From Diacronema lutheri (taxonomy: Eukaryota > Haptophyta > Pavlovophyceae > Pavlovales > Pavlovaceae), in contig JAGTXO010000001.1 of NCBI GenBank assembly GCA_019448385.1, positions 1,116,001 through 1,180,000 on the forward strand: DNA of 64,000 nt, in the 5' to 3' direction. The position numbers were made by a program, and so were the translations under genes. The first letter of the stretch is position 1. Every line of letters starts with the position of its first letter. Below are positions 10,853 through 48,426 of the stretch, one piece after another. A model generated the notes under the pieces. It worked only from the letters and a program-made list of their open reading frames with translations. It made no database searches and had not been told where the DNA came from.

Positions 10853-10913
10853 CGAACGTTGCCACCTTGGAAATTCCTGCCTTCCCAGACACCGCACCCT
10901 AGGCGCGGGAAGA
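10853..10913. promoter_or_regulatory. 61-bp head-to-head intergenic space (TRPM2 / REV7)
   Basis: Only 61 bp separate the two divergent start codons, so both genes must share a bidirectional promoter or have start sites inside each other. No TATA box is visible. The stretch holds CCTTGGAAATTCC-like and CCTAGG sequence, lower in GC than the flanking codons. Confidence 0.5.
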
Positions 10914-14430: not shown

Positions 14431-14527
14431 GCCTCAGAGCATGGCGCCCGCCCGCTCGAGCCGGACCTCCGCGCAGCCGGACTCGCCCCGCCCCGGGCTG
14501 CTCTGGCTGGGCGACGTCGTGCGCGCC

Positions 14528-20327: not shown

Positions 20328-20360
<33 letters not shown>

Positions 20361-21357: not shown

Positions 21358-21390
<33 letters not shown>

Positions 21391-23295
21391 CGAGGCGTGC
21401 GCGGGGGCTTGGGGTGGGCTCCGGGTGCCGGCGCTGTGCCAGCGGCGGGCTTGGTTGACGCCGTCTCGCCGGGGCCCTTGCGCCTTGCGGCGCGAGCGTC
21501 GCGGAGGGGCGTCGGCTGCGCTGGCTCCGCGTCGGCGGTGGCGTGGGGCAGGCTCTTGTGGAGGGCGGAGCGCTCGCGCACGAGTCGGTTGCCAAGGCGG
21601 GCTGTCTGCGTGCCGTTGGGCTGCGCTTGGGCAGGTAGGACCTGCGGCCTCGGGGGCGGGCGGGTTTTCGTGTTGGGCCAGGCGGCAACGCGCACCGGCC
21701 GTGTTCGCGGCCGGCAGGCGGACGTCCGCAGCGGGGCGGAGAATGCGGGTGAAGCGCTTGCACGGGCGCGGTTCGCACCTGGCGGCCAGGCGATCACGAA
21801 CCGTTGGGTCGCCCGGCTGTTTGGTGGAGCCGAGGGCAGCAAGGATAGCGAGCTTGGCCGCCTCATCGGTGACGAGCGGCACTGTTGCCCAGCTCTGTAC
21901 CTCGAAGCCCTGGATGTGCAGGCGTCGGGGAAGTTCCCGGCAGCGTCGCCTGCGTCCGTCGAGAGGCGGACCGAAGTCGCGCCCGTGCCCCCGTTGGCGA
22001 CACCGAGCTCTCGCTCGTTCACACCGGCCCGCCGACGCGGGCGCGTGGTGCGCGCGCGTTGGGTGCGTGTCTGCCTCGAGCAGCGTGCCCAGTCGCAGTG
22101 TGGGCGCGTGTCCGTCTGCCTCAAAACGCCACGTGGAGGGGAAGGCGCGGGGCGGGCTCGCCGAGGAGGTGCCGCCGCTCGCTGCCACCCGGCGCGGGCT
22201 CGGGGCAGCCGTCTTCGGGTGCCGCGCTCTTCGCGCCATGCACGAACGTTCCGCCGCGCTCGCAGCGCGCGAGCGCACACACAGAGCGCGCGGCGACCCC
22301 GGCGGGGGCAGTGCGTCCCGGTGGCACTCGCGGGCGCGCGCCTGGCCTGGGCGCAGCTGGGCGCGTTGCCGCCCGCGCAGCGAGCCGCCCGCGCGCCTCG
22401 CCGCGCGCGCGCTTCGTCGCACGCGTGCGCCCTGCATGCACGCGCACAGCGCGCGGCGGCTCGGCGCAGTGCAAGGCAGAGCGTGCTGCAACGGTTGCGA
22501 GGGCGCGCACGCGCGGCGCGGCGCGCCCCTGTGTGGTCGCCTGCGCGCGGCGCGTGGTCCGGACGCAGCTCGGTGGCGTGATGCCGTTCGTGCAACACAG
22601 TGCGCGTGAGAGCCGCACGTGCACACCTGCAGTGCAACGCGGCATTGCGCGCGTTGCGTGGGCGGAGCGCGGCTGGATGTGCTTGAGGTCGCGCAGCATG
22701 CCGCGCGCCGCGCGCTGTGCGGCGCAGCGAGTCGGCCATGCCCCTGGTCCTCGTCTCCGGGGGGGGGGGGGGGGGGTGGTGGTGGCAACCAGGATCCGCC
22801 AGCGCGTGGTGGGCGCCGTCCAACTCCCAGCCAGGATGCGCCCCGTTCTTCCCCGACACTCTCCGTCCAAACCCGCCGCCCAGCCTGCCGCCGCACCCGC
22901 CGCCAACGCCGCCGCGCACCCATCCGCCGAGCTCACCTCGCGCGCGCTCGCGCTCACGCTGCGCGACGAGGCTGCGCAGGCCGGCGCGCGGCCGTGCAGA
23001 GCAGCGCAGGCCGGCGCGCGGCCGCGCGCGCGCGCTCACGTTGCGGCCGCGCAGCGAGCTTTCGCCGCGTCGCAGCCCCTCCGAGCAGCCACGATGCACG
23101 CCCCCGGAGGACGTTGGCCGCGCTCGGAGGCCGCGCTCGGGCGCGCAAAGAGAGGCGGCGCGGGCAAACGAGTAGGCTCGGCGCGCTGGCGGGTCCTGGT
23201 TGTGGGAGAGCGGGGCATTCTCCAGGGCATCATGTAAATTCTCCCAAGTATCATCCGGGCCGCCATCCGGACACTGACGTGCCCACAGTCTGCAG
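20576..23295. other. 2.7-kb gene-poor stretch with G20, G21, G32 and G18 tracts
   Basis: No domain is recognisable on either strand; the long open frames here (for instance a minus-strand frame over 21258-23423) are Arg/Pro/Ala-rich and switch between equally open alternatives. It contains four long G runs on the plus strand at 20914-20933, 20935-20955, 21359-21390 and 22759-22776. Short repeats such as GCGCAGGCCGGCGCGCGGCCG occur twice near 22980-23020. It forms the upstream space of the giant gene that starts at 23296 and may hold its promoter. Confidence 0.5.
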
Positions 23296-26200
23296 ATGGA
23301 GGACTCCGTGAAGGACGCTTTGCCCGGCGGGCGGGGCGGCTCGGACAGTTTCTCGCTGGCCCTCAGCACCATTCTGTCGCCGGGAGATACCCACCCCCAC
23401 GTGGTCCCATCCACTTGCCTCATCGCCCTGCTGCGTTACGCGGATTTCGGCACGAGCAGGGTTAGGGTGGGCGACACGGGGTGCTCGCAGCATGCGCTCA
23501 AGGTGGCGCTGCGCAACCTGCGCAAAGCATGCGCGGATGCGGACCGGTTTGGGCAGGTGCTCGTGGTCGTGCTACCGCTCTGCCTCCGCGCGTCCAGCGG
23601 CCTCGTGCACTGGACGGCGGCGTACCTGCTCCTCGCGCCGCCCGCGCAGCGCGGCGCGCCGCCCGGCGCCGCGCTCGCCCTGCTCGCCGATTCGCGCACC
23701 TTGGGCAACGGCGAATCGGCGTACGCCACGGCGGCCGGCGTGCTCATCAAGAAGCTTGCGCAGCGCATCGGCAGAACAGCGCCGCCCATCGATGCCTTCA
23801 AGGCGCCCCCGCAGAGTGGGGCCGCGTGTTGCTTCGCCGCGGCAACAGTCGCGGCCGAGGTCGTGGCGAGCGCATCGACGCTCTACGGCCGCCGCGCGAG
23901 TGTCCTTGTCGACATCAAGAAGGCTTTGGACGCGCGCCTCGCGCGCCTCACGACGGCCGCGTACGAGGAGACCCGCGCGCGCACGCTCCGCGCCGCCATC
24001 GGCGCTCTGCTCGGCGACCGCGCCAGGCGCTTCGGCCCGTTCACCCGCGAGGCCGCGCGGCTCGCCGAGGCCGCGCGGCTCGCCGAGGCGTGCGATGCCA
24101 GTGTCGGCGGATCCGCGCCCGACGGGCTGCTGCAGGCCGTCGAGGCGGCGCTGCGCGCGCCCGACGACCGCATCGCACGCACGGCCGCGCTCGACGCGCT
24201 CACGGGCGCTGCAGGCCGCGCGCTGTCGACGGCGGCCAGGCCGCGCGGCGCGGCGGCGCCAAGGCCGCCGTCGCGAGCGCCACCGCCGCGTGCGCCGCAG
24301 CGGCGCGCCGCCTCGGCGTGGGGGCCCCGACCATTCAGCAGCCTCGGCGGGGGCGAGGGCGACGGGGACGATGGCGACGCCACCACCGCTGACGACGGGG
24401 AGGGCGCGGAGGACGGGGACGACGACCCCGCGGGCGCGGCGGCTGCGGCGGTGGCGACGGGCACGGCGGCGACGAGCGCGGTGGCGGCGGGCGCGGCGCC
24501 AACCTCGCCGGCGGCGGCGGACGGCGGTGGCTCGGCGCCGCTCGAACGCCGCTGCGTCTACACTGCGCCTGATGAGGGCGACGCGGACGCGCGCGTGTAC
24601 GACGCCAAGGACCCCGAGCAGCTAAAAGCGGGCAGGGCGCGGCTACGGGCGAACAGCGGGCGCGCGCCCGCCGTGGTCGACACGCTTTTCGCGCACGCGA
24701 CGGGCACGATCGTCACGCGGCAGCGCACGGAGGGCGTGACCGGCGCGGGCATGCACCACCTCGCCGCCCCGACGCAGGGCGCGGGGTACGGTACCGTCGT
24801 GCGGGCCGAGCTGGGCGAGCCCGGCTTCGCGGGGACGACATGGCACATGACGTCGGGCGTGGAGAACCAGCCGCGCGCGGTACGAGCGGCCGCGCGCGCG
24901 TACGCGCACGACGGCTGGGGCGGCGTGTACAATGCGCACGAGGACTTTGCCGCCTTCGAGGGCTTGCCGCGGCTCGCCGCGCCCGAATCGCTCGCGGCCA
25001 TCGCCGGCGGGTCGGCGGACGCGGTGTTCTGCTGGCGGTCCGGCCGGTCCGTCATCGGCGAGGTGACGACGGTTCACTTCAATGGCGACCGCGCCGCCGC
25101 CATCGACCACGCGCGGGCGCTGCGCGTCAGGCCCGATTGGCGCTCGCAGCCCAGGATCTACGAGGCGGCGTGCGGCGCGGAGGGCACGGTGCTGCTCGTG
25201 TGGGTCGTGCCCGACCGTCACAAGAACCCGCGGCTGGACTGGGCGCCGATTCTCGTCGTGATCCACCTGCCCGCCGACCCCGACTGGCTCGCGCGCGCCA
25301 CGCCGGCGATCGCGAAGGCGCGGCGCGAGGTCGAGGACGGACGCGCGCGCGCGGAGGCGCGCGGCGTGCCGCAGCACCTCGCCTACACGCTGAGCCCACG
25401 CTTCCGAGGCACCGCGCCGCGCGGAGCCGCGCGCGTGCCGCCGCGCCTCGGCGCGAGCGACGCGCGCGAGGCGCGCGCGCTCGCGGCGCTCGAGCCGGCG
25501 CTCATGTTCGCGCCGGCCTGGCGGCGCGCGGTGCGCGCGGCGAGCCGCGCCCCCGGCAGTGGCGCCGCGGCCGTCGAGCGCGCGCTCGCGCGCCTGCACA
25601 ACGCGCTCGAGCCCGATGACGAGAGCGCGCCCGAGTCGACGCGCGTCGCGCCGCTCGCCGCCGCGCTCGAGCAGTCGGCGGGCTGGCCGGCGGGCACGGC
25701 GCGCATGGCGGCAAGCGTGACCAAGGGCCCCGGCGTCGGAGATGGCGCAGGTGGCGACGAAGTGACCAAAGTGGAGGAAACGGCGAAGACGAGCGGCGAC
25801 GGCTGCACCGGCACGCCTCCTCTGCGCCCGGCCGCGCGCGCGGCCGGCGCGGCGGACGACGGAGGGGCGGCGGTCGTGGCGGGCGTCGAGGGCGAGCGCG
25901 ACGCACTCGCCAAGACGGGTGCCGGCGGCTGCGACGACGACGCTCGCGAGCCGCTGTCGGCCGGCAAGCCCGGCGCACTCGCCGCCGCGGCGACCGTCGG
26001 GGGTCTCGGCGAGCTCGTCGGCAGCCTATGCGCGTGGCTGGCGCGCGGCGCGGCTGGCGGCGCCATCGCGGCCATCTCCCCCGGGACGGCCGCGCGCGGA
26101 GCAAACGGCACGCCGCAGCGCGCCGAGCCGCCGGCCGCCGGCGATCCCGTCGCTCCGCACGCGCGCGTCGCCGCTGCGGCGCCCTTGGCGGGCAGCGCGG

Positions 26201-29200
26201 CGGCGCCGTCGTCGGCCGCGCGCGACGCGCAGCGCGGCGTCGCGGGATTCGACGCGGCCGCGCACGCGCACGCGCGCGACGGCAGGCGGGCGGCACGGCG
26301 GATGCGCGAGCAGGAGGGGGCGGTGCACAGGGCCTTCCGCATGTCCCTCTGGCGCGACGCGACGTTTGTCGAGTTCGTTGAGAAGCTGCGCCCCGACGGC
26401 GGCGCGCAGCTGCTCGCGCGCGAGCCCACGCGGCGCGCGGCGGCGGTGCTGTGCGAGCTCGCGCGCGGCCGCGACGGCGCGAGCGGCGCGGCCGGGCTGC
26501 TGCACGAGATGAGAGCCGCCGATGCGCGCGCGCGCGAGGCCGCCAAAGCGGCGGAGGCAGCGCAGCTTGCGCACGGGACGCTGCGCATCGTGGCAACCGT
26601 GGCGCTGGGCGGTGCGGTCTTCGCCGGCATGTCAGCGCTGGTCGTTGCTTGCGCGGCGCGCACGGCGACCGGTGCGCTTTTTGGGGCCCGCCGCCCGCGG
26701 GCGGCCGCGCGCGGAGCCGACGACGCGCTCGGCACGCTGCAGCGCGCCAAGCCGCCGCCCGCCGACAAGGGCAAGCGCAGGCGCGCCAGAGCCAACGACG
26801 ACCCCGTCGACGCGGCGCGCAAGGCCGTGGGCAAGGCGGAGGGCAACTGCCGCAAGGCAGCCCGCCGGCTGCACCTCGCTGCACTGGGCGAGGAGGAGGC
26901 GCAGCAGCGCGTGCTCGACGCCGAGGCGGCGGAGCAGCTGGCGCGCTCGCGCGAGCCGGCCGGCGGCTGGGTAGGCAGCGCGCGCGCGCGCGCGCGCGCG
27001 CGCCCCGCCGCGCGCGCGCCCGTCGATTGGCGTGCGCGCAGCGCAGAACGGCGCGCCAGCTCCGTCACCTGCGCGCCGCCGCGCCCGTGCCCCTCGCGCG
27101 CAGGGGCGCCCTGCGGACCTGCGGCTGCAACAGGCGCACTTTGGCATGCGCGAAGATGCCGACGCGGATGTGCGCCGCGCGCACGAGGCGCTGCGCCGGG
27201 CGAGACAGGGTGTGGCGTGCGCCAAGGCCAGCGTGCGGCAGATGGAGGCGGCGTTGCTCAACGCGACGCGCTGCGCCACCGCGGTGCTCGCGCCGCGTGG
27301 CGTGCCGGAGGGTGACGAGCAGGCCGCGGCGAGAGAGCAGGCGGCGCTGGACCGGGAGGCGCCGCCGGCCGCGCAACGCGCGGCGCCGACGGCGCGCTCG
27401 CCCTCGGAGCCGCCGTCCGAGTGGGGCCCGCCAGCGGTCGGCCGGCGCCCGACGCCGCGTGCACTGTCGCACGCCGCGGGTCGCGGGGACGACAACCCGT
27501 TTGCGCCGCTCGCAACCGTCAGCGGCGATTGGTCGCCCACGCCGAGCTCGCGCTCGCCGTCCTCGCCGCCGCGGCAGCCGCCGTCCGACCGCCGCAGCGC
27601 GCAGCGTCGCAGCGCGCGCGCGCGGCCGCCGAGGCCGACCGTTTCGCCCGAGGACGCGCTCGCAGCCGAGCGCCAGGCGCGCGCGCTGTCGGAGCAGGCG
27701 GAGCAGAGGCGCGCCAAAAAGGCCGCCGCCAAGGCCGCGCGCCGCGCCGCGCGCGCCGCCGACAAGCGGACGGCGCGCGTCGTCCACGCGTGCGTAAGCG
27801 CCGCCTTGCGGCGCGTCTGCACGAGCGTCGCCACGGGCACGCCGCTCGCCGTGCTCCGCGAGCGCGCCGAGGGGCCGCGCGCGCCGAAGCCCGCGCCCGC
27901 GCCGCCACGCCGCGCAGCGGACGGCGGCCGCGCGCTCCGCCACGCGCGCCGTGCGGCCGCCGCGGCGGCGGAGCGCGAGGCGGCGGTGGCGGCCGACGCC
28001 GACGAGCGGTTCGAGCGGCAGCCCTCCGCCGCCCGGTTCGACGGCGGCGATGGCGGCGGAGGCGGCCACGTCGAGGCGAGCGCGCGACCGCGCGCCGGCG
28101 AGGCCGGCGAGGCTGGCGCGCACGGCGCGCCTGGCGCAGCGGGGACCCCGGCGGCGTCGCTCGCGTCGCGCAGCCCGTGTGATGCGCGCCACACGGCACG
28201 CCTCCCGCACGCACGCGCCGCAGCCACCTGCGCACGCAACGGCGGCTGGGGTGGCAACGTCGGCGGCGACGTGTGCGGCGGTTGTTTCGGCGGCGGCGGC
28301 GTCCGTCGCGACGCCTGCGGCGGCGGCGACGCCACCTGCGGCTGCGGCGATGGCGGCGTCGGTGCTGGCGCTGGCGAGGCCCCTGCACACGGTGCGCCGG
28401 CGCGCGCGACGGCGTCGCGCTTGCTGCGCTTGCTCGGCGCGCCACGCGCCGTGCTCGGTGCGATGGCGCACGCCGCGGCCGTGTTGGCGCGCGGCGTGGC
28501 CGCAGCCGTCGCTGGCGTGCGCGCCGCCGCGCGCGCCGTGCGGCGCGCGCGCCGCCGAGCGCCTCGCGCGCGCCGCACGGCTGCGCGGCGGGCTCGCGGC
28601 CCGCCGATGCGCGACGTCGACGGCGCCCTGCGGCCCTCGCCGTCCTGGTTGCGCACACGCCTCGTCTGCGGCCGGCGCCTCGCGCCTCTGCGCCGCGCGG
28701 GCGCGCGCCCGCCGCCCGCACACGCCGCGCCGAGTTCCCGCGCGCGCGCTGCGCAACCCGACAGCGACGCGCCGGCGTGCGCGCCGCGGCGCTCGGCGCC
28801 TGTCGGTGCGCCGCCGCGCGCGCGTGGCCTGCGCGCGGCGCGCGCACGGCGCTTCCTCGACGTCGCCGGCCGCGCGGCGCGGAGCGCGCGCCTCGGCGCG
28901 CGCATCACGCGCCAGCGCACGCCGGGTTCGCCATCGGAGCCCTGCACGGCCGAGAGCGGCGACGGCGCGGGCGCCGGCGGCGTCGGCGCGGCGGCGCCTG
29001 GCGCGGCGACGATGCGCGCCACCGGCGCGCGCGCAGCGCGCGCTGCGGCGGCGGCGGTCGGTGGCGCCTCGCGTCTCGCGCGCCGCGCGATGGCAAGCGC
29101 CGCCGCCGCTGCCACCTCCATCGCCGGCGCTGCCGCCTCCACCGTCGCCGCCGCCGCCGTTGCCATCGGCGCGGCCGTCACGTCACCGGCGTTCGCCGCG

Positions 29201-31551
29201 GCGCGCGGCATGGCGGCCGCATGCGTCGCAGCCTGCGCCCGCCCCACCGCCGCGCAGGCGGCCGCGTCGCGCGCGCTCGGCGCGCTCTTCGTGCTCGTCG
29301 ACGCGGCCGACGCGGCGGGCGACAGCGACGCCGCGCTCGGCGCGCTCGCGGCCGCGGTCGACGCGACGGAGCTGCGCCCGCCGCCGGCCTTTTGGCGCGC
29401 GGGCCGCGCCGCGGCGTACGCACCGCGTCCGCCGCCCCTCGACTCGGCGCGGCCGCGCTACAACCGGCGCGCGCGCGCACCTAGCCCTCCCGTCGCGGCC
29501 GCGCGGCGCAATCTCGCGCGCGCGGTGCGCGAGCTCACGCGCGCCGCGCGCGCTGAGCGCGAGCGCGCGCCGGCGCCGCGCGGCGCGCGCGGCGGCGTGC
29601 TCCACGCGCTGCGCGCGTCGCTCCCCGTGCACGCGCGTGCCGCGCTCGGCACGGACGCGGAGCTGCGCGCGGACATCGCCGCGTTCGCGCGCGCGCGCCG
29701 CGAGCTGCACAGCCTCACCGACGCCGAGGTGGCGGCGCTCGCGCGCCCGGACGGGCCGCCGCTGCCCGTGCGGCTCGCGTGCACGGCGGTCGCGCGCGCG
29801 CGCGGCGTGACCGTGCTGCTCGACATCGTGCCGCGCGGCGGCGGCGCGCCCGAGCGGCTCGTGTGCCGCGCCCGTCGCCGCGGCGCCGCCACGCGCACGC
29901 CACGGCCGACAGCCGCCGTTATCGCGCGCGCGCCTTGCATAGCGGCGCGCGTTGGCCACACTGAGCCGGCGCGCGCGTGCGCGGGCGGATCGATCGGGGT
30001 CGCGCGCCTCCGTTCAGCGCGCCGCCGCTCTTGGCGTGGGGCGCGGCTCGACGTGCACACCCGCGAGCGGCTGGCCACACCGGTGCCAGGCCACGTCGTG
30101 GCCTGCGCCGCCGCCTCGGCCATCGGCGCGTGCGTCGCTCGCGCGCGGCTTGGGCTTGCACGGCTGGCGCGCGCGTGGCCCTGCGCCTCCGCTCCACTGG
30201 CCGCTGCTGCTGTCGCCTTCGCGCCTGCCGCCGACGGTGTTTTCTGCGCCCCGCTGGGCGCTCCTGCATCCGCCTTCGCGCCTGCCGCCGACGGTGTTTT
30301 CCCCGCCGCACTAGCCGCTGCTGCATCCGCCTTCGCGCCTGCCGCCGATTTTCCCGCCCCACTAGTTGCTCCTGCATTCGCCTCCGCGCCTGCCACCGAC
30401 GGCGTTTTCCCCGCCCCACTAGCCGCTGCCGCTGCCGCGTCCGCGCCCGCCGCCGCGGGCGCGTCTTCCGCCCCACCAGCCATCGCCGCCGCGCCCGCCG
30501 CCAACGCGCGCACCGCCAACGTGCCCGTTGCCAACGAGGCTACCGCCACCGAACCAGCCGCCCTTGAGCTTCCCCTCCAACCCGCCAACTCGGCGCTGCT
30601 TGCGTGGGCGGGCGACGCGGCTGCGCGCCGGCTGGCCGCCGCCGCCGCGAGCGCCGGCCTCCCGCAGGCAGAGGTGGAGCGCATCGCCAGCGGCGACATG
30701 CTCGCCTCAACCGTCGACGCGTGCTGCGAGGTCGTGCTGCGCGTGCACGGGCAGGCCGGCGGCGGGCATGTCTGCCACGTGCCGCTCGCCGCGCAACCCG
30801 CGGTGTTTCAGGACGACGCCGAGCGCGCCGCGCTGCTGCACCGCCTGCGCAGCGAGGCGACAACGCAGGCTGTCATCGGCGTGTGGAGCCCGTCGGACGA
30901 GCGCGGCGGCGCGGGCGGTGACGACGGCGCGCAGCTCGCCTCCGGCCATTTCACCGCGTTGCGCCTTGTGCGCGTCGCGCGCGCGGGCGAGCATCGCTAC
31001 GACGCGGTGCTCGTCGACACGCTCGCGTCGCCCTGCAGGCAGGCGCTCATGCGCGCCAAGGCGATAACTGCCACGCTGCACGCGGCGGGTCTCGACATTT
31101 CGCGCGTGCGCCGCGCGCTGCTGCTCAACGAGGCGGCGCAGCGTGGCGCGACGTGCGGCCTCGCGATAGTGGGCGCGCTCAACGACGCGCTCGCCGCGGC
31201 GGGCTGCTCGTCCGCGCCGCGCACGTTCAGCGTGGCGGACATGTACGCTGTCGGCGAGCGCCTCCGCGTCGCGCTGACCGGCGCGGCCAGCGATCGTGCG
31301 CCGGGCGGCGTCTGCGCGGTCACGAGCGCGGTGCGTGGCGGGGGCAGCCCCGATCGCGCCGAAACGCCGCCGCAGACGCGCGGCGCCAAGGCCGCCGCTG
31401 GCGTCACCGCCGCCGCCACCGCCGCCGCCACGCCGCCGCCGCCCGCGCTGGGCGCCGCCGCCGCCGCCACCGCCGCCGCCGCCGCTGCTGCCGCCGCCGT
31501 GGCCGCGCCGCCACCGCCGCCACCGCCGCCGCCGGCCGGCGACGCGGGCGA

Positions 31552-31624
<73 letters not shown>

Positions 31625-34600
31625 GCCGCGCGCACGTTCTTGAAGCTCGCGCCCAGGGCGCGCGCGGCCGCCTCGGCGCGTGAGGCGTTGCGCGCCGCGT
31701 GTGCGCGCGCGGACGCGGCGGCGTCGTCACACGCGTCGGCGCCGCACGCGCCCGCCGGTGCGCGCCGCCGGCGGCGCGCGGGCGCAGGCGAGCTGGCGCT
31801 CGCGGCTGCGCGCGCGCTCGCCTCGACGGAGCACGGCGATTTGACGGACGACGCGCTCGAGGCCGCCGTCGAGCAGGAGCTGGGCGACGAGCGCGGCCAA
31901 CTGCTGCTGTGCACGCGGGGCGCAGCGGCGCAAAGGCCCGCGCTTTGCCGGCTCCTGAAGCACGCGTGCGCGTCGGCGCGCGCGGCGAAGCGCGCGCAAT
32001 TCACGGTGTTCGTCGTGCGCGCGGCCACGCGCGGCGAGCGGGGGGGCGCCGCCGCGAGGCGCGTGGACTCGGTGGTCGAGCTGTCGTGCGCGCTGCACGA
32101 GAAGGCGGGCGCGCTCGGCGGCCTCCAGCGCGTCTGTGTGCGTGGCTTCGCCCTCGAGCGCCGCCGGACACTCGACGCTGGCGCCGAGGCCGGCGCGTCC
32201 GCCATCGGCCAGGACGAGCAGGTCGAGGCAGAGGCGGGCGAGGCGTGCGTCGCCGGCGTGACGATGGCCAAGCAGCTGCGTCAGTTTGCCGAGCAAGCTG
32301 CCCGCGACGACGTGCTCTTCCACGTCGCCGTGTCCGAGGCCGACGCCCACGCCCGGCTGGCGCGCGTTGCGGGTGACGATGTCGGCGCGTACAGCGTCGT
32401 GCTCGCAGTCGCCGGGCTCGTCTGGCTGGCCAAGGCCGACGAGGTTGCGCCGGCGGCCGCCCAGCCCGCCGCCGTGCCGCCCGCCGCCCCGCCTGCTGCC
32501 GCCACGTCCGCCGACGCCGAGCGCGACGCCTCGCCTTCCGACCGCCTGAGCGCGCTGACGCTCGCCGTGCGAGTCGCGCTCGCGCGCGGCGTGCTGCGCC
32601 ACCTCCTCGCCGACGCGTCGCCGGGCGCGTCCGCGACCGCTGGCGGTAGTTGCGCGACGCCCGTCGAGGCGGCCACGTCCGCCGCCGCGCCGCCCGCCAC
32701 GGGCGTCGTGACGAGTGGCGTTGCGGCGGGCGCTGTGGCGGCCGCACCGGCTGCTGCGGGCGGTGCGATGGCGGGTGCATCGCCCATCACGCGGCCGGCG
32801 AAGCGCGCGCGGCGCACGCTCACCGCCGCTCCAGCCGCCTCGGCCGTTGCGGCCGCTGGAGGCGCACGCGCGGGCGCACGCGGCGCGGCCGGCGCGCCTC
32901 GCGCGCGCGCCGCGCGCGCGCCGGCCGAGTACGTCTGGCTTGCCATCGCGCGCCGGATGCTGGCGGCGCGACACGCGGCGGCCGCGGGCGGCGACTTTGT
33001 CGCGTCGTGCGTCGCCGCGATGCAGGCCGAGTACGGCGACGGCTGTGCCGTCGTCGTCGGCGACGCGCCTGATGACGCCTTGGTCGAGGCTGCGGCGGCG
33101 GCGCTGCTCGAGGGCAAGCACGCGGCGGTGAGCCTCGGCTGCGTCGACCGGCCGGCGGTGCTCGTCGTGCAGCGCGCCGTGGACGCGCCCACGTCGCGCG
33201 TGCACGGGTGGTGCGCGCACGCGGCGGGCGCCGCCGAGTTTGACGAGGGCGCCGCGCACGGCGTGTTCAACGCGATCGTCGAGCGCGCGTGGGCGCTGCG
33301 TCCGGACCCGGCCGACGGCAGCCCGCCGCCCACGCGCACGTGGGAGGTCGAGCAAATCGCTGACGACGCGCCCGACCAGGCGGGCGTGGCCGCGCTGCGC
33401 GTGCTCTACGCGCTCGTCGCGGCGCACGGCCGCTACCGCTCGGCCGCCGCGCTCTTTGGCGCGCTCGCGCAGCTGCACGCGCCCGACGCCGCCGGCGCGC
33501 GCGCGGAGGTCGTCGCGGCGGCGTGCGCGGTGCCGCCCGGCGCGCGGCCGGGCGCCGCGCCGGCGGCCGCGCGGGACGACGCGAGGGAGCGCGCATGGGA
33601 CGGCGCTCAGATCGCCGCGCTCGCCGTCGGCGCGGACGCTGCGCGCAGGCGTGTCGCGCCCGTGCGCGCGCTCGTCGACGCGCTCGGCACGCCACCGACC
33701 TCGGCGATCACGGGCGGGCCGGCGGTCCGGCTCGCGGGCGCGGGCGACGGCGGCCACGGTGCACGGTGGGTGGGCGGGCAGGCGGCGACGCCCGCCGAGC
33801 AGCTGCCGAGGGAGCTGCTGCGCGCCTACCACGAGGCGGTGCTGTGCGTCACGCCCGGCAGCCTCCAGCTCGGCCCGGCGGCGCTCGACGCGGTCACGCG
33901 GCCGCGCGAAAACGACACGCTGGAAGGCCTCCTCGCGCGCGTCAGCTGGCAGTGCGGCGCGAGGGCGAGCACGTGCGCCATGCTCGCCACGTTTTCCGAG
34001 CAGGCGGGCACCGGCTCGCGCGTCGCGCTCAAGGCCCTCCGCACGAGCTCCGACCTGGCCGGGCTGACGGCGGCTGCGGTCGGGCAGCAGGCGCCGCAGA
34101 CGCCGCCGCCGCCGCTGCTCGTGATGCTCGGCCGCTGCCCCAGCCCGCTCGTCGGCGGCGGCCTCTTCCCGCCCGACCGCGCGACGGGCGAGCCGGCGGT
34201 GCACGCGGCGACGTCCGAGCTCGCCGTCGAGCTGCTGCGCGACGCGCGCGCGCTGGCCGGCACGGACGGGCGGCTCGTCGTGCTGTGCCTCGAGGCGTCC
34301 AACCCGCTCTGGTTCTGCCCCAAGGTGCGCGAGCTCGAGCTGCCGCGGACGCGGTCGGACGGCGTGCGCGCGTCCGGCTGCACCTGCCCTGCGACGTGCA
34401 GCGATGCGCGCGGCGCGGCGGGTGGCGCTGCCCGCGGCGCATCGACGCGGCCGGCGGCGCGCGCGATCAACAAGGCGGTGCTCGACCACTTCGTCGCGCT
34501 TTTCGGCCGCGAGGGCTTCGCGACCTTTGAGTTTGCGGGCGGCGGCGAGGCGAGCTGGCTGTGCGACAGCGCGGCCGGCACGACGACCGTCGCGGCGTGC

Positions 34601-37600
34601 GCGTCGCTGCCGCCGCGCATGGGCGATGGGCAGCTGGCCATCCGGCGGCACACGCTCGGCACGGGCGCCGACGCGCCGGCGCACGCCGTCGTCTCGCTCC
34701 GCGTCGCGCACGTGAGCCACGCCATCCGCCGCGCGGCGGACGACGGCGGCGCGCGCGCCGAGCGGATGGCGCGCGCCGCGCGCGCGTTCTGCGATGTGGC
34801 GGCCGCGCTGCGCGTCGACGCGATCCTGGCGGAGGTGCCCGAGGACCGCCCGACGGGCACGCCCTTCCTTGGCGGGCTGCTCAAATGTTGGGACAAACGC
34901 AACGGGAGCTGGACGGCGCCAGCCACGCTCGCGCTCGGAGACGTGCGCGAGGTGGCCAAGCGGACGGCCGACGCAGCGGCCGGCCGAGCGGACGAGGTCC
35001 CTGCGGCTGGCCGTCCGCAGGTCGCGGCGCGCGCGTGCGCTGGCGCGATTGGCGGCGGCGCGGGCGCGGCGGGCGCCTCGGACGCTGCGCCGCGTGCACT
35101 GGCGGGCGCGTCGGGTGCGCGCACGGACGGCGGCCCTGCCGACGCACCGCGCCAGCTGGAGAGCCGCTACGGCGAGGCGAGCAAGCTCGACCTACCCCAA
35201 GATTCCACTACGGGCCGCGTCCTCGACGCTCGCGAGGCCCAGGACCGCGCGCGCGTGCCTGCTGCGCCCGACGGCACAGCGCTGCGCCGCGTGCTCGACG
35301 CCGTCGGCGCGGGCGCGCCCGCGCAGCGCAGCCCGCGCTGGCACGACGAGCGATGGGAGGAGGTCACGGGCAGCAAGGTTGGCGACGTCGTGAACGACAA
35401 CGCCGGCGTCGCGCACGAGACGCTCACCGACGAGTACGTGCACCGGCGGCGGCGCGAGGTGCGGACCAAGGCGACGACCGCGGGCATCCTCGGCGAGGCC
35501 GTCGCGCTGCGCAAGCTGGCGGCCGCGTACGGCATCACCGTCGTGTGCAACCTGCCGATGGTGCGTGCGGACCCGCACGACAAGAGCGCGCCGTTCGCCT
35601 TCTCGCCGGACGGGCTCGCCATCCTCCCCGAAAACAACGAGCAGGTCCTCGTCGAGGTGAAGACGCTCACCAAGGCGGGCGCCACGGCGCACGAGGACGG
35701 GCCGCCGCAGCCGCACCGCGATCAGCTGCAGCTCGGCATGCACGTCCTCGGCGTGAGCAAAGCGCTCTACGTGCAGTACCTCAGGCACGAGGACCGGATC
35801 GTCGTGCACGTCGTGACGCGCGGCGCCGGCTGGCTTGCATTCGCGCAGCCGAGGGTGCAGGCCTTCTGGGCGCGCGTCGTCGAGCGGCGCGCGCGGCTCG
35901 AGCGCGCGCGCGCCGACCACCCGGCTGCGAGCCGGCGGCACCGGCGGCAGCAGACGCCGGCCGGGCCGCCGCTCGTGCTCGCGCTGGACGGGCGCATCCC
36001 CGCCGCGCGCGCCGCCGCGCTGCACGCCGTCGCGCACGGCACCGCGAGCGCGGCGGCGGTGACGGCGGCGGCGGCGACGGGCGACGCGACGGCGTTGCAA
36101 GACGCGATCGCGGCGCTGCGCGCGCCCGTCGGCAATGCGGCGATCGACAGCGCAGCGCGTGCGGAGCGCGCGGCCGTCGAGCGGGCGATCGCGTACCTCG
36201 GGCAGCCGACAGGCGACGCCGCCGCCCGCGGCACGGCCGAGGCGGCCGAGGAGGAGAGGACGGTCGACGCCGACATCTGCGCGTTGCTGCACCAGCTCGG
36301 CGCGAGCGTGGCGCACGTGCACGTCGAGGACGCGGATTGCGTCACGCGTGAGCACTGGGGCGGGGCGGTGCTCGCTGCAGCGGGCGACCCGTCGAGCGCC
36401 CCCGCCATTTCGAGCGTCATCGTCGCGCACATCGTGCGCCTCGCCGGCTTTGGCGTCGAGCTCCCGCAGTCGATTCGCGTCGCCCCCAGCACGGCCGACT
36501 GGCACGAGGGCTGGCTCGACGTGCAGTGCGTGCTGCTGCGCACGCGCCGGCGCGGGCGGCGCGACGACGACTTTGTGGCCGTCGTCAGGCGCGGTGGGCG
36601 CTGGTTTGCGTGCGAGCCCGGCCGCGCGCGGCGGCTGCAGTGGCGGTCGGTCCTGCGCCGCGCGCGCGGCGGCGTCGACGGGACCGGCGAGGAGGCGTTC
36701 GCGGTCGTCTACGTGCGGCGCGGCGACGCGGCCGGCGACGCGGCTGGCGACGCGCAGGCCGAACGGGCGCGCGGCGGGCGCGCGCGCAGGCGCACGCGCG
36801 GCGGCACGCGCAAGCGCAAGCGCGGCGCCTCCGCCGGGCTCGAGGCGGCCGCGCCCGCCGGCGCGCCGGCGGGCGCTGCTCACCGCCCGCCCGCCAGGCG
36901 TGCCACGGTCGCCGCGCGCACCACGCGCTCTGTGACCGACGCGCGGCACTCGGCGCCTGCCGCCACGGTTGCACCTGTCTTCGACTGGCGCGCCGGCCGC
37001 CCGCCCCCTGCCGCCGCCGCCGCCGCCAAGCGCGGCCAGGCGCTCGAGCCGGGGCAGTTCGCGCGGCCGCGTGGGCGCGCGCCATGGGGCAAGGTCTGGG
37101 ACAGAGTCTCGGGTGCGTGGGCGGACAAGCCGACTGGTGCTGCCGTCGCCGCCGCGCCGCCGCCGCTGCCGCCCGCCGCCGCGCCGCCGCCCGCCGCCGC
37201 GCCGCCGCCCACCGCCGCGCCGCCGCCCGCCGCCGCGCCGCCGCCCGCCGTCGCGCCGCCGCCCGCCGCCGCGCCGCCGCCGCCGCCGCCACCGGCGGCG
37301 CTCGGCCACCGGCAGCACGTCGGCGCGGGCGGCAGCGCGGCGGGCCGGCGGCTCGCGGCCATCGCACGGCGGCAGCGCGGCGTGCGCGCGCCGCCGCCCG
37401 CCGCGCGCTTCCTCGCCACGCTGCCGCCACCGCCACGCGACGGCCTCGCGCGCACGAGCAAGCAGGCGCGCGCGAGGCGCAACGCGGACGGACGGCCGGC
37501 GCACGCGCGCGCGGCCAACGCGCGCGCCTTCTACCGCGGCGTGGAGCTCGGCGTGCACGCGACGCGCGCCATCGTCGACGCGCGCCACGCCGACCTGCCG

Positions 37601-40600
37601 CAGGCCGTCTTCGTGGCGGAGGCGCGGGCGATCGTCGCGCGCTCCGCCGGCGGCGGCGCGCTGCTCGCGCCGGACGACGTGCGCGACCTGTGCGACGCGC
37701 AGACGGACGCCGATCGCGCTGCGATCTGGGCGTCGGTGGGCGCGCACGAGGCGACGCGCATCTTCGCGCTCGTCACGCGCAACGCGAGCTTGGCGGGCGC
37801 GGCGCTGCTCGTGCTGCACACGCCGGCGGGCGCGCCGGCGCGCGCGCTCGGGCTCGTGGCGACGCGCTCGCGCGCGCCGTCGACGGGCGCGCCGCGCGAC
37901 GCGCACAGGGCGCTGGTGCAGCGGTTGGACGTGCTGATGGACGCGATCGCCGCGGCGCGAGGCGCGTCGCCGCTCGAGCTCGAGCTCGCGCTCGCGCCCG
38001 AGCCGCAGAGCGCGTGCAACGCGCGTGCGGCCGCGCTGCTCTGCCTGCAGGCCGTCGCGGACGCGAGCGGCCGTCCCGCCGCTGAGGACGCGCTGGCCGC
38101 GCTCGACGACGCGCGCGGCATCGACCGGCACTGCCACGCCATCCGGCAGCAGATCGAGGCGAAGCTCGCGTGGCGGCGCGCCGACGGCGCCGTCGGCGTT
38201 GACGGCGCCGACGGCGCGCCCGCGCTCGCGCCTGCCGCCGCACCGCCGGCGTGCGCGCCGGCGCACGCTGCCGGCGAGGCGGCGGTCGACCAGGCGATCG
38301 TCACGCGGGTGCGCGACGCGCTGCGCGCGTGGGCGACGACTGGCACCGCGCCCAGCGCGGCGGTGCTCGACGACGCCTGCGCCGCGTACACGGCCCGCGC
38401 ACGCGCGCGCAAGGACGCGCGCACGGCGCTGGGCCCGACGCGCGCGGCCGAGCTGCTCGCCGCGGCCGCGCGCGGCGGAGCCGACGGGGCGGATGCCGCG
38501 CGCGCGCTGCTCGGCGGCACGCCGCGCCTGCTCGTCGTGCTCCTCTGCGTGCCCGTCGCCGCGCCGTCCGGCGAGCCGCCGCGCCCGGTCGGGCTGCTCG
38601 TCGCCGACCGGCCGACGGACGACTCGCGCCCGGCCGCGCTCGTGCGCTACGACTTTGCGCCGCTCGACGCGGACGTGGCCGTCGCGGTCGGCGCGCATGC
38701 CGTCGCGCTGGCCAGTGCGATCTGGCCGCTGCTCGCGGCCGAGGGGGAGCCGCGGCCATCGCCCGTCGTGCGCTCGCAGCCGCGCGGCGGCGACGATGGC
38801 GCGCGTGCGCTCGCAACGTTCGCGTGCCTCGACGCGCTGATGACCGCCAGCGTCGGCGCGCACGGCCTCGCGGGCGGCGCGGGCATGCTGCCCGCGCTGG
38901 TCGCGCGAGGCGCCGCGGCCGCCCAGCGCGAGCGGCAGCTGCGCGCGGACGCCGAGAGGCTGGGCGGCACGGTCGCTGGGTGGCCGGACACGGGCGCGAG
39001 CGCGGCGGGCGCGAGCGTCGACGAGGAGGCGCGCACGTACGAGGTCGAGGCGGTCGTCGACGAGCGCCGCAAGGCGGGCAAGAAGGTGACGTTCCAGTTC
39101 CGGATCAGGTGGCGGGGCTACGACGAGAGCGCCGACACGTGGGAGCCTGAGGCCAACGTGAGCAGCGACCTCGTCGCCCAGTTCCGCAAGACGCGCGACG
39201 AGCAGAAGCGGCGCGCGGGCGTATCGGGCAGCGGCAGCGGCGGCGCGGGCGCGGCGTCGGCATTGGCGTCGGCGCCGCTTCGCGCGCACGGCGAGTCGGG
39301 CGCCGCGGGCAAGCGCGCCGCGGCGGGTGCCGCCGCGAGCGCGCGCGACGCCGCGGGCGCGCGCGCGCCGAGCGTTCCCCGCGCGCGCGGCGTCGAGCGC
39401 GCGCGCGTGGACGAGCCCGCTGCGCCGAGCGCGCGCGCCGCCGGCGGCGCGACGGCGCGCACGCGCGTCAGCGTGCTCCCGGGCTTCGTGGTCAAGCGCT
39501 CGACGCTCAACGCGGGGCCGCAGGCGGTGACGGCGCAGCCCGGTGCGCGGAAGGAGCTGCGGCGCATCGCGGCGGCCGTGCACAGGCTCACGACACAGGC
39601 GTACCGCGTCATCAACAAGGTGGTGCGCGACGAGGCTGCGGTGGCGAGCGCGCAGGCCGTCGGCGCGGCGTCGGGCGGCCCGTCGACCAGCGTGCACACG
39701 TCGACCACGATGGACAAGGGAACCGTCCGTGCGATCTTCTCGGCCATCGGCTGGCACAAGGACGAGAGCACGTACGGTGCAGCGCCCCGAGGCAAGCCCG
39801 CCGAGCAAGCCGCCGCGCAGACCAAGGCGGCGACGGCGCGCGCCGTCGGCGAGATGGCCGAGGGCGTCCAGCCCGTCTGCGCGGTGGGCCTCACGGAGAT
39901 CCTCGAGGCGGAGGCGACGCAGGTGTCCACCGCGTGCCTGATGCATCCATCGCGCGTCGTGAACGGGCTGCTCCGCGACGTCGTCCGCGCGGCAGTCGAG
40001 CGCGACGAGGCGCTCGTCGCGCTGCCCGAGATGCAGCGAAACGCGCGCGTGCGCGAGCTGTGCGAGCGGCTGCTGCGCGGCGACGTGGAGGGCGCGCGCG
40101 TCGGCTGCCCCGCCGCGCTCGACCGCCACCTGCCCGACATGGTCCTCCACAAGATCGACTACAAGTGCACGCCCACGAAAAGGTGGAACTACGACCGGCA
40201 CACGACGCGCTACTTCCTCGTGCAGATCCGCACCCTGCAGCACGTGGCCGAGGGGCAGGCGCTGCTCTGCCGGCTCGCGCACATCCACACGCAGCTGACC
40301 GGACGGCCGCCGCGGTACAATGTGGCGCCGCTGCGCACGCACAATGTGCGCGCGAGGCGTGGCTGCCGCTGCCGCCGCCGAGCGCCCAAGCGCGCGCGCC
40401 GCCGCCGTGCGCGCCGCCCCGCGGCCAGGTTGGTCACGCGCCCGCGCGCTCGCGCGCCGCGCGCTGCGCGCAGGTGCCGCGCAACGTGCGCCTCGCCGCG
40501 AGCGCCATCTGGGTGACGCTTTCGGATGACGAGCGCAAGGAGCTGCGCGCGCGGCTCAAGGCGCTGGACCTGCGCGACCACGATGGCGAGCCGATCAAGT

Positions 40601-42198
40601 GGACAGGCACAAACGGCAACACCCCGCCGATGTCGGACGTGCGCGTCAGGTACGCGGTCTTTGCGACGCGCTTCGACATCTCCAACCGCGTCTTCGACTA
40701 CGCCGGGCGCGAGCGGCCGCCGGCCGATCTGCCGTGGCACGCGCGGCGCTCGTGGGTTGGCCTCGCGCCGCTGCCGCGCGTGCCGCTCCCGGGCCGGCAG
40801 CCCGTCAAGTCGGTGGTGACAGATGGCGTCGCCGTGCACGCCGTCGGGACCGTCCTCGTGCCGAAGGCGCAGGCGCCGGCCGGCGGCTCGGGCGTCCTGC
40901 ACCGCTGGCGCCGGCCGGACGGGCGCATCGCCGTCGCGCTCGGCTCCGAGCTGCGGCGGGCGATCGACGTCGAGGCGGCGGTCGTCGTCGCGGCCGACCC
41001 GAACATGGGCAACATCACCACCTACTCTGCGCACGTCGGGCGGGCGGCCGTCTGGCGGCAGTTCACGCAGCGCGCGCGCGCGCGCGCCGCGGGCTTTGCG
41101 CGCGAGACGGCCAAGACCAACGCGGCGCGGCGGCGCGTGCGCACCGACGGGCGCGGCGAGGAGTTCAGCGTGGAGGCGGACGAGGCGCGGCTTGGCGAGG
41201 CGCACAGCGCCAAGGTGCTCGACGCGGGCAAATACATCGCCTTCCACCGCGAGAGCGCGCGGGTGCGCGAGCGCGCCGCCGAGCACGTGTACGACGCGCC
41301 GGCGCGCCGGAAGGAGCGCTGGCGGCGCGACAGCGGCGGGCGGTCCAACGCGGCGCGCGTCGCCGAGGCGCTCATCGCGGCGCACTGTGTCGACGGCGTG
41401 ACGCGCGACCGGCTGCTCGTGTGCGTGGGCAAGTGGCTGCGCGACCACAAGGGCGCGCAGCCCAAGGGCGCGCCGCCCGCCTTCCAGGTGGGGCTGCTGC
41501 GCGAGCTGCGGCGGCGCGGCGTCGCGGCCGTCTTCGTGCCCGAGCCGTACACGTCGATGCACTGCTCGATGCCGCGGCTCGCCAAGGGCGGCAGGCTGCA
41601 GCGCTGCGGCGCGGAGCTCGCGCAGAACCCGCGCCTGCCCGTGGCAAAGGGCGGCACGCGCACGGTGCACGCGCTCGTCATCTGCCCGGCGTGCAACGGC
41701 GGCAAGAAGCCCGTGCACCGCGACTACAACGCCGCGCGCAACATCTTCTACGACGTGCACGACATGGCGGCGCACGCGGCCGGGCGCGACACCACGTCGA
41801 CGCCTGAGCGCTTTGCCCTCGTGCTCGCCTGGTGGGCGCGCGGCGAGGTGTGGGAGCGTGAGGAGCGCATGGTGCACGGCGAGGGCGACGACTGCGACGA
41901 CGAGTGCGACGGCGACGACGAGGGCGACGACGAGGGCGACGACGACGACGACGACGATGGCAGCGGCGACGGCGGCGGCGGCGAGGGCGACGGCGACGGC
42001 GACGGCGACGGAGGCGGCGGCGGCGACGACGACGATGACGGCGGGGGAGGCGGCGGCGGCGACGGCGGTGGCGACGACGGCGGCGGGCGCGGCGGCGGTG
42101 GCGGCGGCGGCTCTCGCGCCCGCACCCCCGCCCGCGGAGCTGCCAGCGCCAGTGCCGGCGGCGGCAGCGCGCGCGGGCCGAAGCGCGGCCGGCGTTGA
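23296..42198 (+). CDS. Giant C48 peptidase-YqaJ-chromodomain-Fanzor fusion protein
   Basis: Predicted exons 23296-26970, 27104-40345 and 40474-42198 give 6213 residues. Both introns (133 and 128 bp, GTAGGC and GTGCGC donors, CGCAG acceptors) are phase 0 and join frames that otherwise terminate. Order of parts: C48-like peptidase (residues about 35-190), Ala/Asp-rich linker, a possible membrane helix (about 1096-1125), long Arg/Ala-rich regions, second C48-like peptidase (about 2388-2600), several degenerate peptidase-like modules, YqaJ-type exonuclease (about 3960-4150), Pro/Ala repeats, chromodomain (about 5202-5257), Fanzor nuclease (about 5349-6070) and an Asp/Gly-rich acidic tail. It may be a polyprotein cut by its own peptidases, or several transcripts. 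Further in-frame introns cannot be excluded. Position between REV7 and RPN8 and this domain mix suggest a mobile-element origin. A single mature protein of this size is not proven. Confidence 0.65.
23401..23865 (+). other. C48 (Ulp1-like) peptidase domain 1 of the giant protein
   Basis: The catalytic pattern of Ulp1/adenain-type cysteine peptidases can be read in order: His105 in LVHWTAAYLLL, Asp132 in LLADSRTLG, Gln173 and Cys179 in PPQSGAACCF, with Gln-Cys spacing of six as in SENP/Ulp1. Enzymes of this clan cut SUMO-like modifiers or, in Polinton-like elements and adenoviruses, capsid precursors. Overall identity to known enzymes appears low, so this is a motif-level call. Confidence 0.6.
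30204..30450. repeat. 57-bp coding minisatellite
   Basis: Four imperfect copies of a unit of about 57 bp, coding for a block like SAFAPAADGVFPAPLAA, sit just before the second peptidase domain of the giant protein. One copy is shorter by 6 bp, keeping the frame. Likely a flexible, fast-evolving linker. Confidence 0.8.
30590..31240 (+). other. C48 (Ulp1-like) peptidase domain 2 of the giant protein
   Basis: Residues about 2388-2605. The catalytic order is His2507 in SGHFTALRL, Asp2530 in AVLVDTLA, Gln2571 and Cys2576 in AQRGATCGLAIVGALN; the TCG triplet matches the DCG of Ulp1-type enzymes. The upstream part (ERIASGDMLASTVDACCEV, HVCHVPLAAQPAVF) resembles the substrate-groove half of the fold. 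This is the better preserved of the two peptidase signatures and could process the giant protein or deconjugate a modifier. Confidence 0.65.
31553..31621. repeat. GCC trinucleotide repeat coding 23 alanines
   Basis: An uninterrupted (GCC)n array in frame codes for 23 consecutive alanines, embedded in a longer Ala/Thr/Pro-rich low-complexity region from about 31390. It separates peptidase domain 2 from the following modules. Confidence 0.9.
35300..35880 (+). other. YqaJ-type exonuclease domain (PD-(D/E)XK) of the giant protein
   Basis: Residues about 3960-4150 follow the lambda-exonuclease/YqaJ viral recombinase plan: an N-terminal RSPRWHDERWEEVTGS, GILGEAVALRK (Glu4023), AFSPDGL (Asp4061), VLVEVKTL (Glu4076, Lys4078) and a Gln helix HRDQLQLGMHVLG. 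All expected catalytic positions are present. Such 5'-3' exonucleases make single strands for annealing in phage and element recombination. Within this gene it could process element ends or repair Fanzor-made breaks; that role is inference. Confidence 0.85.
37150..37305. repeat. Pro/Ala-coding repeat
   Basis: Tandem copies of an 18-bp unit code for a block of APPPAA type between the YqaJ and chromodomain parts of the giant protein. Copies differ by single bases (one Thr and one Val variant). Probable flexible linker. Confidence 0.85.
39026..39204 (+). other. Chromodomain of the giant protein
   Basis: Residues about 5202-5257. It shows the classic pattern: TYEVEAVVDERRKAGKK, then FQFRIRWRGYDESADTWEPEANV and a C-terminal helix LVAQFRKTR. 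The aromatic cage positions are Tyr, Trp (in RWRGY) and Trp (in DTWEP). Chromodomains bind methylated histone tails; in chromoviral retrotransposons they steer integration to heterochromatin. Here it directly precedes the Fanzor nuclease. Confidence 0.9.
39473..41790 (+). other. Fanzor (eukaryotic TnpB-like) RuvC nuclease domain
   Basis: Residues about 5349-6070, spanning intron 40346-40473. The N-terminal half is helical. RuvC-I is AADPNMGN (Asp5814). The Glu lies in VPEPYTSMHC (Glu5996), the rearranged position described for Fanzors (usual form DEYRTSxxC), while the TnpB-type position (VCVGKWLRD) has no Glu. A zinc ribbon uses Cys6003, Cys6017, Cys6043 and Cys6046 (CPAC). RuvC-III is HRDYNAARNIFY (Asp6056). 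All three acidic residues are present, so it should be active. Family members are RNA-guided DNA endonucleases using an RNA encoded at the element's end. An acidic Asp/Gly tail follows. Confidence 0.88.
41880..42120. repeat. GGCGAC-type repeat coding an Asp/Gly acidic tail
   Basis: Irregular GGCGAC, GACGAC and GGCGGC hexamers code for an Asp/Gly-rich C-terminus after the Fanzor domain, followed by a short basic end (GPKRGRR). In TnpB-type loci the guide RNA often overlaps this part of the gene. Confidence 0.85.
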
Positions 42199-42614
42199 CG
42201 CACGGCCGAGCCGCGCAGCGGTCGACGCTTTGCGGGCTCTGCCCAGGTCGCGCGCGGCTGGCGACGCGTGCCGCGCGCGGCACGACCGTGCACGCCGCCA
42301 CCCGTGGCCGAGCGCGCCGCACCAGCCGGCCCGCTCCAACCGCCGTGCGGATCACGGACGCTCGCTACGGCTCGTCGGCGCGCGTCACCTGCGCCGGCGG
42401 CCACGGCGCCGTCTGCTCCGGCCTCGTCGCGAGCAGCCCGACCGCTGCTCGCCGCCCGCACGCCGCCGCAGCAACGCTGCGCGTCGTGCTCCCCCGCTCG
42501 CCAAACGCGAAGAGCTCCCTCACAAGGACGTCCTTCCGAACGGCCCGCGCTGCACTCGGGGCGCGATCGTGCCCCTGATCGGATTTGGCTTGACCATCTA
42601 ACGTTTTTCGCGTG
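42199..42614. other. Intergenic space between giant gene and RPN8; possible element right end
   Basis: The 416 bp hold the 3' ends of two convergent genes. No gene is visible. In known Fanzor loci the guide RNA scaffold starts near the 3' end of the coding region and ends at the element's right boundary, so this is where an omega-type RNA would be expected. I could not identify a terminal repeat or target-site duplication by eye. Confidence 0.3.
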
Positions 42615-48355: not shown

Positions 48356-48426
48356 GCGCGCGCATCAGCCCGTGGCTGTGCAAACACTCGTTTCATCCGG
48401 CGTGATCGAGCGAAAGGCGGCGCACG
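48356..48426. promoter_or_regulatory. 71-bp head-to-head space (SELENOO / WD40-TRP)
   Basis: Divergent start codons are 71 bp apart. The sequence holds no TATA box; CAAACACTCGTTTCATC near its middle is the least GC-rich part. Likely a shared bidirectional promoter. Confidence 0.45.

Follow-up and report, generated by a model that had tools for sequence, protein, structure and literature searches.

Fanzor1 proteins have been reported in the Helitron2 elements CRe-1, 2 and 3 of Chlamydomonas, which their describers call non-autonomous, and Fanzors are also present in large DNA viruses, as stated in PMC3627910. The same paper describes tyrosine recombinase (YR) elements as having no target site duplications (TSDs) and carrying short direct repeats. 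In the part of PMC10711439 that deals with active-site residues, Fanzor1 is given an alternative glutamate, placed six residues ahead of the zinc finger, and the DPG motif is near exclusive among Fanzors, although the third residue of this motif is N in SpuFz1, itself a Fanzor1. Here we describe a 64,000-nucleotide stretch of the Diacronema lutheri genome (the window; positions 1,116,001–1,180,000 of contig JAGTXO010000001.1, assembly GCA_019448385.1), which holds a giant candidate gene with peptidase-like, exonuclease, chromodomain and Fanzor parts. We conclude, at a probability of roughly 0.55, that this gene forms the 3' portion of a 31 kb Helitron-related DNA transposon that has been amplified recently. 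The published genome paper reports 22.9% repeats, and most of the annotated ones are long terminal repeat elements and long interspersed nuclear elements; no word starting with "transpos" or "helitron" is used in the main text (PMC8379373). As far as that main text goes, the published algal genome appears to leave a young element of very large size and high abundance without a name.

An earlier note on the window had suggested an unrecognised large mobile element, and this proposal was strongly supported by the more than 100 near-identical copies with fixed ends and unrelated flanks. Fetched loci matched the window only from 11562 to approximately 42600, with unrelated flanks on either side, and the element is therefore about 31.04 kb long (11562–42602), with the giant frames inside it (Table 1). 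The genome searched with pieces of the element comprised 43.49 Mb in 103 contigs, and the window lies on the contig numbered C9. All copy counts are lower bounds: at least 129 for the piece encoding the YqaJ exonuclease domain (129 of 238 candidates scored, all 99–100% identical), at least 127 for the first part of a helicase gene (127 of 232, 94–100% identical) and at least 150 for the beginning of the giant gene's exon 1 (150 of 190, 93–100% identical). Most matches had an identity of 97–100%. At least 113 Fanzor TNB domains were also put in the element's family on near-identical scores. Both ends could be placed for 23 copies, of which 12 were ~31 kb, four ~26 kb, six ~21.6 kb and one ~12.7 kb; the left part at locus L021 matched from 11658 only, short of the element's left end. 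From a mean length of ~27 kb and 127–150 copies, with fragments ignored, the element is estimated to occupy ~8–9% of the genome.

The read N50 reported for this assembly is 23.5 kb (PMC8379373), and, because the repeats are near-identical over 31 kb, some copies may have been merged or smoothed by polishing. Comparison of positions placed at least 10 contig starts and five contig ends (C3, C13, C14, C33 and C71) no more than ~50 bases from the right terminus of the element, and some other contigs start inside the element or at its left end. A link to telomeres was set aside and these contig ends were taken as assembly breaks; an element longer than the read N50 may explain many of the contig breaks of the assembly.

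The copies fall into subfamilies that share their ends. The type C copy on C14 is 21.6 kb long and has the ends in common with the window, with part of the helicase gene missing; its giant frame of 4190 amino acids (aa) matches the window only at 30480–42600 (97.4%), and its N-terminal part is unrelated. In the ~26 kb type (L025 and L027), 17973–25700 is missing and ~2 kb of other DNA stands in its place. Because the subfamilies differ upstream, exon 1 is an exchangeable part, and the conserved core runs from ~30.5 to ~42.6 kb, where YqaJ, chromodomain and Fanzor follow the second C48-like piece. Differences among copies were clustered, as gene conversion or polishing would produce. All eight internal insertions or deletions between subfamilies within the frames were multiples of three (three further rows at the edges of aligned pieces were left out), and several lay in triplet repeats. 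An inverted repeat at 13561–14431 was kept in the type A copy of the window and in two type B copies and was rearranged in type C copies. Its 378-bp arms could fold into a long hairpin in a transcript or in single-stranded DNA. At the 1–3% divergence between subfamilies, the kept frames, the indels in threes and the substitution ratios given below show recent spread from coding sources and not strong selection.

The ends of the element were near-constant. At the left junction, CTATATAC was found in 41 of 43 ends and GTATATAG and CTATATAG in one each, with TATATA ahead of the left end in all 43; this sample includes two pairs with identical flanks, each pair taken as one locus on overlapping contigs. 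The right end of one copy (L094) was not at its predicted position. No direct repeat of three or more bases outside the constant motif was present in any of the 21 copies with both flanks readable, and other ways of cutting these flanks gave figures close to those for re-paired flanks. No empty site was found among the flanks of the fetched loci, where one weak flank match occurred (L024/L019, 69%). A Helitron2-like asymmetric inverted repeat at the ends is suggestive: the best of four lengths tried was a 12-mer with 10 of 12 bases, equalled in 2.9% of shuffles.

The genome contains 430 STATATAS sites and 652 sites with the motif GTAAGCGYCGTTA, for which the reversed control gave 0. This motif precedes three of the 43 insertions read, and in a fourth its last two bases are missing; by eye, it stands directly before nine and two bases before one of 50 STATATAS sites listed, and among those sites it also precedes one element end. 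The box that follows GTAAGCGYCGTTA is mostly GTATATAG at natural sites and CTATATAC at insertions. The motif looks like a core-promoter or repeat-promoter element, and the placement of GTAAGCGYCGTTA and TATATA fits insertion at TATA boxes, whether CTATATAC belongs to the target or to the element.

The same junctions could be made by a site-specific recombinase, with a Crypton-like tyrosine recombinase or a serine recombinase hidden in the giant protein and a circle of DNA that integrates by crossover in a TATA core. TATAC at both junctions of nearly all copies, a strict core with no other duplication, would suit such an element, as would the large parts of the giant protein that match no family and the TSD-less habit described for YR elements (PMC3627910). 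We consider this origin unlikely, given that no recombinase family was found in the frames scanned, that a helicase of Helitron type would be hard to place in it and that the left variants GTATATAG and CTATATAG are not mirrored by the right motif of the same copies.

Upstream of the giant gene lies a Helitron-type Pif1 helicase gene. Pfam PIF1 matched at 15936–16172 (E 3.7e-14) and 16133–16579 (1.8e-24), followed by a Pif1 2B domain at 16898–17032. The best PDB match was Helraiser at 5.7e-26, versus 5.6e-7 for the best other Pif1 entry, and the first half of the gene taken separately again matched Helraiser in the PDB (8.2e-7). A further frame of the element holds a domain of the ubiquitin carboxyl-terminal hydrolase (USP) type, for which the PDB gave only weak USP12 matches (E 0.045). 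The earlier note's finding mentioned neither the helicase nor this peptidase. All recognised genes of the element are on one strand. Families for DDE transposases, tyrosine recombinases, polymerases, capsids and integrases were not found in the element frames scanned, where a very divergent tyrosine recombinase is conceivable. The term Helitron-related is used in place of Helitron because a Rep domain was tested for and not found.

The giant gene is spread over three overlapping stop-free frames (23278–27315, 26975–40516 and 39151–42198). GC content by codon position shows the frame changing at ~26.9 and ~40.4 kb, with coding-like values for all three exons (0.79/0.64/0.90, 0.81/0.66/0.91 and 0.78/0.57/0.95). 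The earlier note had joined three exons by two phase-0 GT-AG introns into one frame of 6213 residues; the frames and the phase-0 pairs were borne out, and the model of one gene with two introns was weakened by a (GC)n tract, by copies that read through and by the subfamily with an unrelated N-terminal part. Fourteen combinations of phase-0 GT-AG pairs yield exactly 6213 residues, for example 26971–27103 with 40346–40473, so the two-intron model is not unique. Of 20 loci fetched for candidate intron 1, 13 were readable across it, and three of these were 2 bp longer and read through; genome-wide, nine of 150 exon-1 copies lie within frames of more than 3000 aa by such read-through. Candidate intron 2 varied only at 40360, 40371 and 40383 among the copies compared. 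Exon 1 had no better Pfam match than DUF7525 (E 0.96), and 132 of its 150 copies keep a frame of their own of 1345–1351 aa. It is possible, at somewhat less than even odds, that several independent genes are present, with separate starts for exon 1, the 4513-aa frame and the Fanzor, an arrangement compatible with any mode of mobility. Breaks between the frames do lie at ~26.97 and ~40.4 kb, in most copies exon 1 persists as its own frame, and the type C element read has no exon-1 counterpart, its giant frame starting in an unrelated N-terminal part of its own.

Three of the domains that the earlier note had read from the sequence were upheld by profile searches. The YqaJ/lambda-exonuclease (RecE-like) domain matched PHROG 434 (Table 1), and fell below the cut-off for NCBIfam TIGR03033 (3.6e-7) and for Pfam YqaJ (0.013 in the full scan, 4.3e-4 on the piece alone). 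Searching phage genomes with tblastn gave matches in 22 of 50,697 records (best 9e-6), and no exonuclease was found in the PDB at E≤1. The domain contains GEA, SPDG, EVK and QLQ, which we take to be the YqaJ catalytic motif set. A YqaJ piece on C71 with a better Pfam score was considered as a special variant and proved to be an ordinary copy (99.6–99.7% DNA identity). The chromodomain was clear in both Pfam (2.9e-12) and the PDB, with chromodomain matches at 8e-9. In the Fanzor part, the three RuvC acidic residues D, E and D and the alternative glutamate were read in frame (ADPN, PEPYTSMHC and HRDYNAARN), and TNB was just above its Pfam cut-off (27.3 bits against 26.3, E 4e-6). The first RuvC motif is DPN in the window copy in place of the DPG expected of Fanzor1, and the zinc finger has one intact CxxC (CPAC), the first being degenerate (CSMP), where two are expected. 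The right region of the element, where a guide RNA would be expected, gave a fold z of −0.99 and no Rfam matches. As read from the frames, Fanzor, exonuclease and chromodomain are apparently physically joined, the Fanzor across the frame change. Pieces of the giant frame and a longer stretch gave nothing in Pfam at E≤10 besides YqaJ and DUF noise, with ~39.2–40.4 kb scanned only inside longer pieces at E≤0.1. A resemblance of giant-frame residues ~2147–2237 to the N-terminal part of the other Fanzor family of this genome, at loci L001–L008 (score 80, reversed control 45–49) lies in alanine-rich sequence and was not relied on.

Two Ulp1-type C48 peptidases had also been claimed for the giant gene. 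The H-D-Q-C motif order is present at 23608–23832 in exon 1 and at 30947–31159 in the main giant frame, and the assignment to C48 peptidases was not confirmed, as no C48 family of Pfam matched either piece at E≤10 (HMMER filters drop most matches above ~0.1). Block shuffles (300) contained a mean of 0.09 such patterns against the two seen, for a pattern that was written after seeing them, and a looser version occurred 0.51 times in shuffles against two. A single-sequence structure model of the second piece reached a predicted local distance difference test score (pLDDT) of 39 and was not used. A giant multi-domain frame would be at home in a virus-derived integrated element or a self-processing viral polyprotein, and Fanzors are known from large DNA viruses (PMC3627910); the earlier note had raised this origin, which now seems very improbable. 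The peptidase assignment on which self-processing depends is unproven, the frames scanned hold no capsid, DNA polymerase, packaging or integrase family, and single-protein queries of IMG/VR, a kind of search limited to close relatives, returned none for the YqaJ, Fanzor and second C48-like pieces.

Several observations weigh against a Helitron-related transposon with a selected giant gene. Scans of the element frames recognised no Rep/HUH domain (Helitron_like_N), and reading all six frames gave no convincing HUH motif, although H-x-H does occur twice inside the giant frame (36314 and 38129). The sole Helitron_like_N match of the genome (L136, C63:35300–36500) is a fragment in an interrupted frame, which aligns with Helraiser residues 486–570. 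Neither end folded remarkably as DNA when set against shuffles (z −1.72 for the left, 0.16 for the right). At lengths of 9, 10 and 11 bases the terminal inverted repeat was ordinary, being equalled in 54%, 23% and 9% of shuffles. It is also possible that insertion duplicates a fixed target and that the constant TATA is the product. The target of Helitron1 is A^T, and that of the element here is TATATA. Chlamydomonas Helitron2 differs from it too, with TTTT as its described target (PMC3627910). Selection on the giant frame was only weakly shown, because the ratio of non-synonymous to synonymous changes (dN/dS) ranged from 0.36 to 1.85 by part and some wrong frames were lower. Against a further subfamily, the Fanzor gave 0.61 (1.05 and 1.29 in wrong frames), but exon 1 gave 1.48 (1.37 and 0.73) and the YqaJ piece, with 12 changes, 1.85 (0.53 and 2.17). 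Compared with C14, the shared exon-2 part gave 0.77 (1.07 and 1.18); its most divergent third stood at 0.66, the following parts at 1.37 and 1.72, and its end, with two changes, at 0.36.

A Helitron-related element of this kind would move replicatively by a rolling-circle (Helitron2-like) route, with a nicking Rep that is either too divergent for recognition or supplied in trans. The Fanzor may take a guide read from the element's right flank and cut sites without the element, which would favour retention or spread of the element. Broken ends would then be processed by the exonuclease, the chromodomain might tether the giant protein to chromatin, and the deubiquitinase could remove ubiquitin marks and so blunt a host response.

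The same proteins could also support RNA-guided break-and-copy with no transposase, in which the Fanzor cuts, the RecE-like exonuclease resects, TATA anneals and helicase-driven synthesis copies 31 kb. Cutter and resection enzyme are in neighbouring frames of one presumed gene with a helicase in the same element, TATA microhomology is present at both ends, no transposase was recognised, and subfamilies are ~99% identical at their ends with divergent middles, as from recombination. However, a flank-derived guide accounts for homing to old sites and not for new ones, no annealing partner was identified, and the fixed ends are probably sharper than the usual outcome of repair; we regard this route as rather improbable. 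That the element is a self-contained RNA-guided break-resect-copy transposon, formed by the giant Fanzor/exonuclease/chromodomain protein, the helicase and ubiquitin/SUMO-directed peptidases and without a classical transposase, seems to us a long shot. The role of the Fanzor for its transposon is directly testable here, because the system combines an apparently joined exonuclease and chromatin reader with many young copies, definable ends and a culturable alga.

Table 1. Features of the element, in window positions (a dot marks features without strand)
Feature	Position	Strand	Remarks
Whole mobile element, type A	11562–42602	+	Copies cease matching there; 43 left and 30 right ends near-constant
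Left junction CTATATAC, then GGCGCGG; target-derived or terminal	11562–11569	+	43 left ends read
Perfect palindrome, 18 bp, 47 bp inside left end	11609–11626	.	
Inverted repeat within element	13561–14431	.	Two 378-bp arms, 99% complementary; 115-bp spacer; GGGTGTA repeats
Helitron-type Pif1 helicase gene	15003–17335	+	Two frames, frame change at ~16.15 kb
Frame with USP domain	18430–19926	+	Pfam UCH 4.3e-8, 33.5 bits vs cut-off 23.9
Exon 1, giant gene	23296–26970	+	1225 aa to candidate donor; frame open to 27315
Candidate intron 1	26971–27103	+	Contains (GC)n microsatellite
Main giant frame, 4513 aa	26975–40516	+	At least 4000 aa in 93 of 129 copies listed
YqaJ/lambda-exonuclease (RecE-like) domain	35315–35890	+	PHROG 434 E 1.1e-15
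Chromodomain	39038–39190	+	Pfam E 2.9e-12, 46.7 bits vs cut-off 25.1; PDB CDYL chromodomain 8e-9
Candidate intron 2	40346–40473	+	GT-AG, phase 0 on both sides
Exon 3, Fanzor RuvC/TNB part	40474–42198	+	TNB at 41506–41745
Right subterminal near-palindrome GGGGCGCGATCGTGCCCC	42558–42575	.	
Right end GACCATC	42584–42602	+	TATAC next in 29 of 30 ends read; TAAC in window copy

The element sits directly behind a Rev7/MAD2B-like gene (10755–11540; PDB MAD2B E 4.5e-16, no Pfam family at E≤0.001), whose stop codon is 18 bp before the left junction. Elsewhere in the window there is a pair of TRPM-like ion channel genes in opposite orientations (2–10999; LSDAT and Ion_trans domains), a SelO gene on the minus strand (46628–48364), WD40 repeats with an ion-transport domain (48406–55103) and a cNMP-binding domain (60356–63997). 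Tandem repeats occur at 62293–62428 (27 bp x 5, 99%) and 2138–2262 (23 bp x 5.4, 90%). Loci L001–L008, among the top TNB matches of the genome, were considered as copies of the element and rejected, being a different Fanzor family that is ~29% identical over ~120 residues. That family sits in repeated loci, L002 carrying DPG and ExYTS motifs, and matches sharing its TNB score have frames of up to 1779 aa.

In the open-licence PMC literature, covered mostly by titles and the starts of abstracts and with Repbase outside its scope, neither a Fanzor joined to a YqaJ exonuclease nor a 31 kb element of this kind was found. The exonuclease resembles the RecE/lambda-exonuclease family of PHROG 434 in its profile match and motif set, and differs from it in being embedded in a eukaryotic giant transposon protein. 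The helicase domain resembles that of Helraiser (Helitron transposase, PDB 7lcc), with two stretches matched, whereas the HUH/Rep half of Helraiser was not found in the element frames scanned. With SpuFz1 and other Fanzor1 proteins, as far as they are set out in PMC10432273 and PMC10711439, the Fanzor shares the D-E-D triad, the alternative glutamate position and a C-terminal TNB, and with SpuFz1 also an N that follows the first D by two positions (D383, N385); the target-adjacent motif of SpuFz1, CATA, is similar to the TATA of the left junction here. Unlike the other Fanzor1 proteins described there, it has DPN for DPG and a degenerate first CxxC and is apparently joined to a protein of several thousand residues. 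The nearest described elements are the Helitron2 elements of Chlamydomonas in PMC3627910. In both algae, a Fanzor1 is carried by a Helitron-related element that inserts after a fixed short motif, and the lack of TSDs here agrees with the Chlamydomonas copies that have a complete 5' end and resembles the pattern of Helitron-1N1_CRe; our junction sample consists of copies with intact ends, 5'-truncated copies with variable TSDs being outside the comparison. Set against the Chlamydomonas elements, as PMC3627910 presents them, the element of D. lutheri is distinguished by its 31 kb length, its own helicase, its USP and a giant frame that carries a RecE-like exonuclease and a chromodomain beside the Fanzor.

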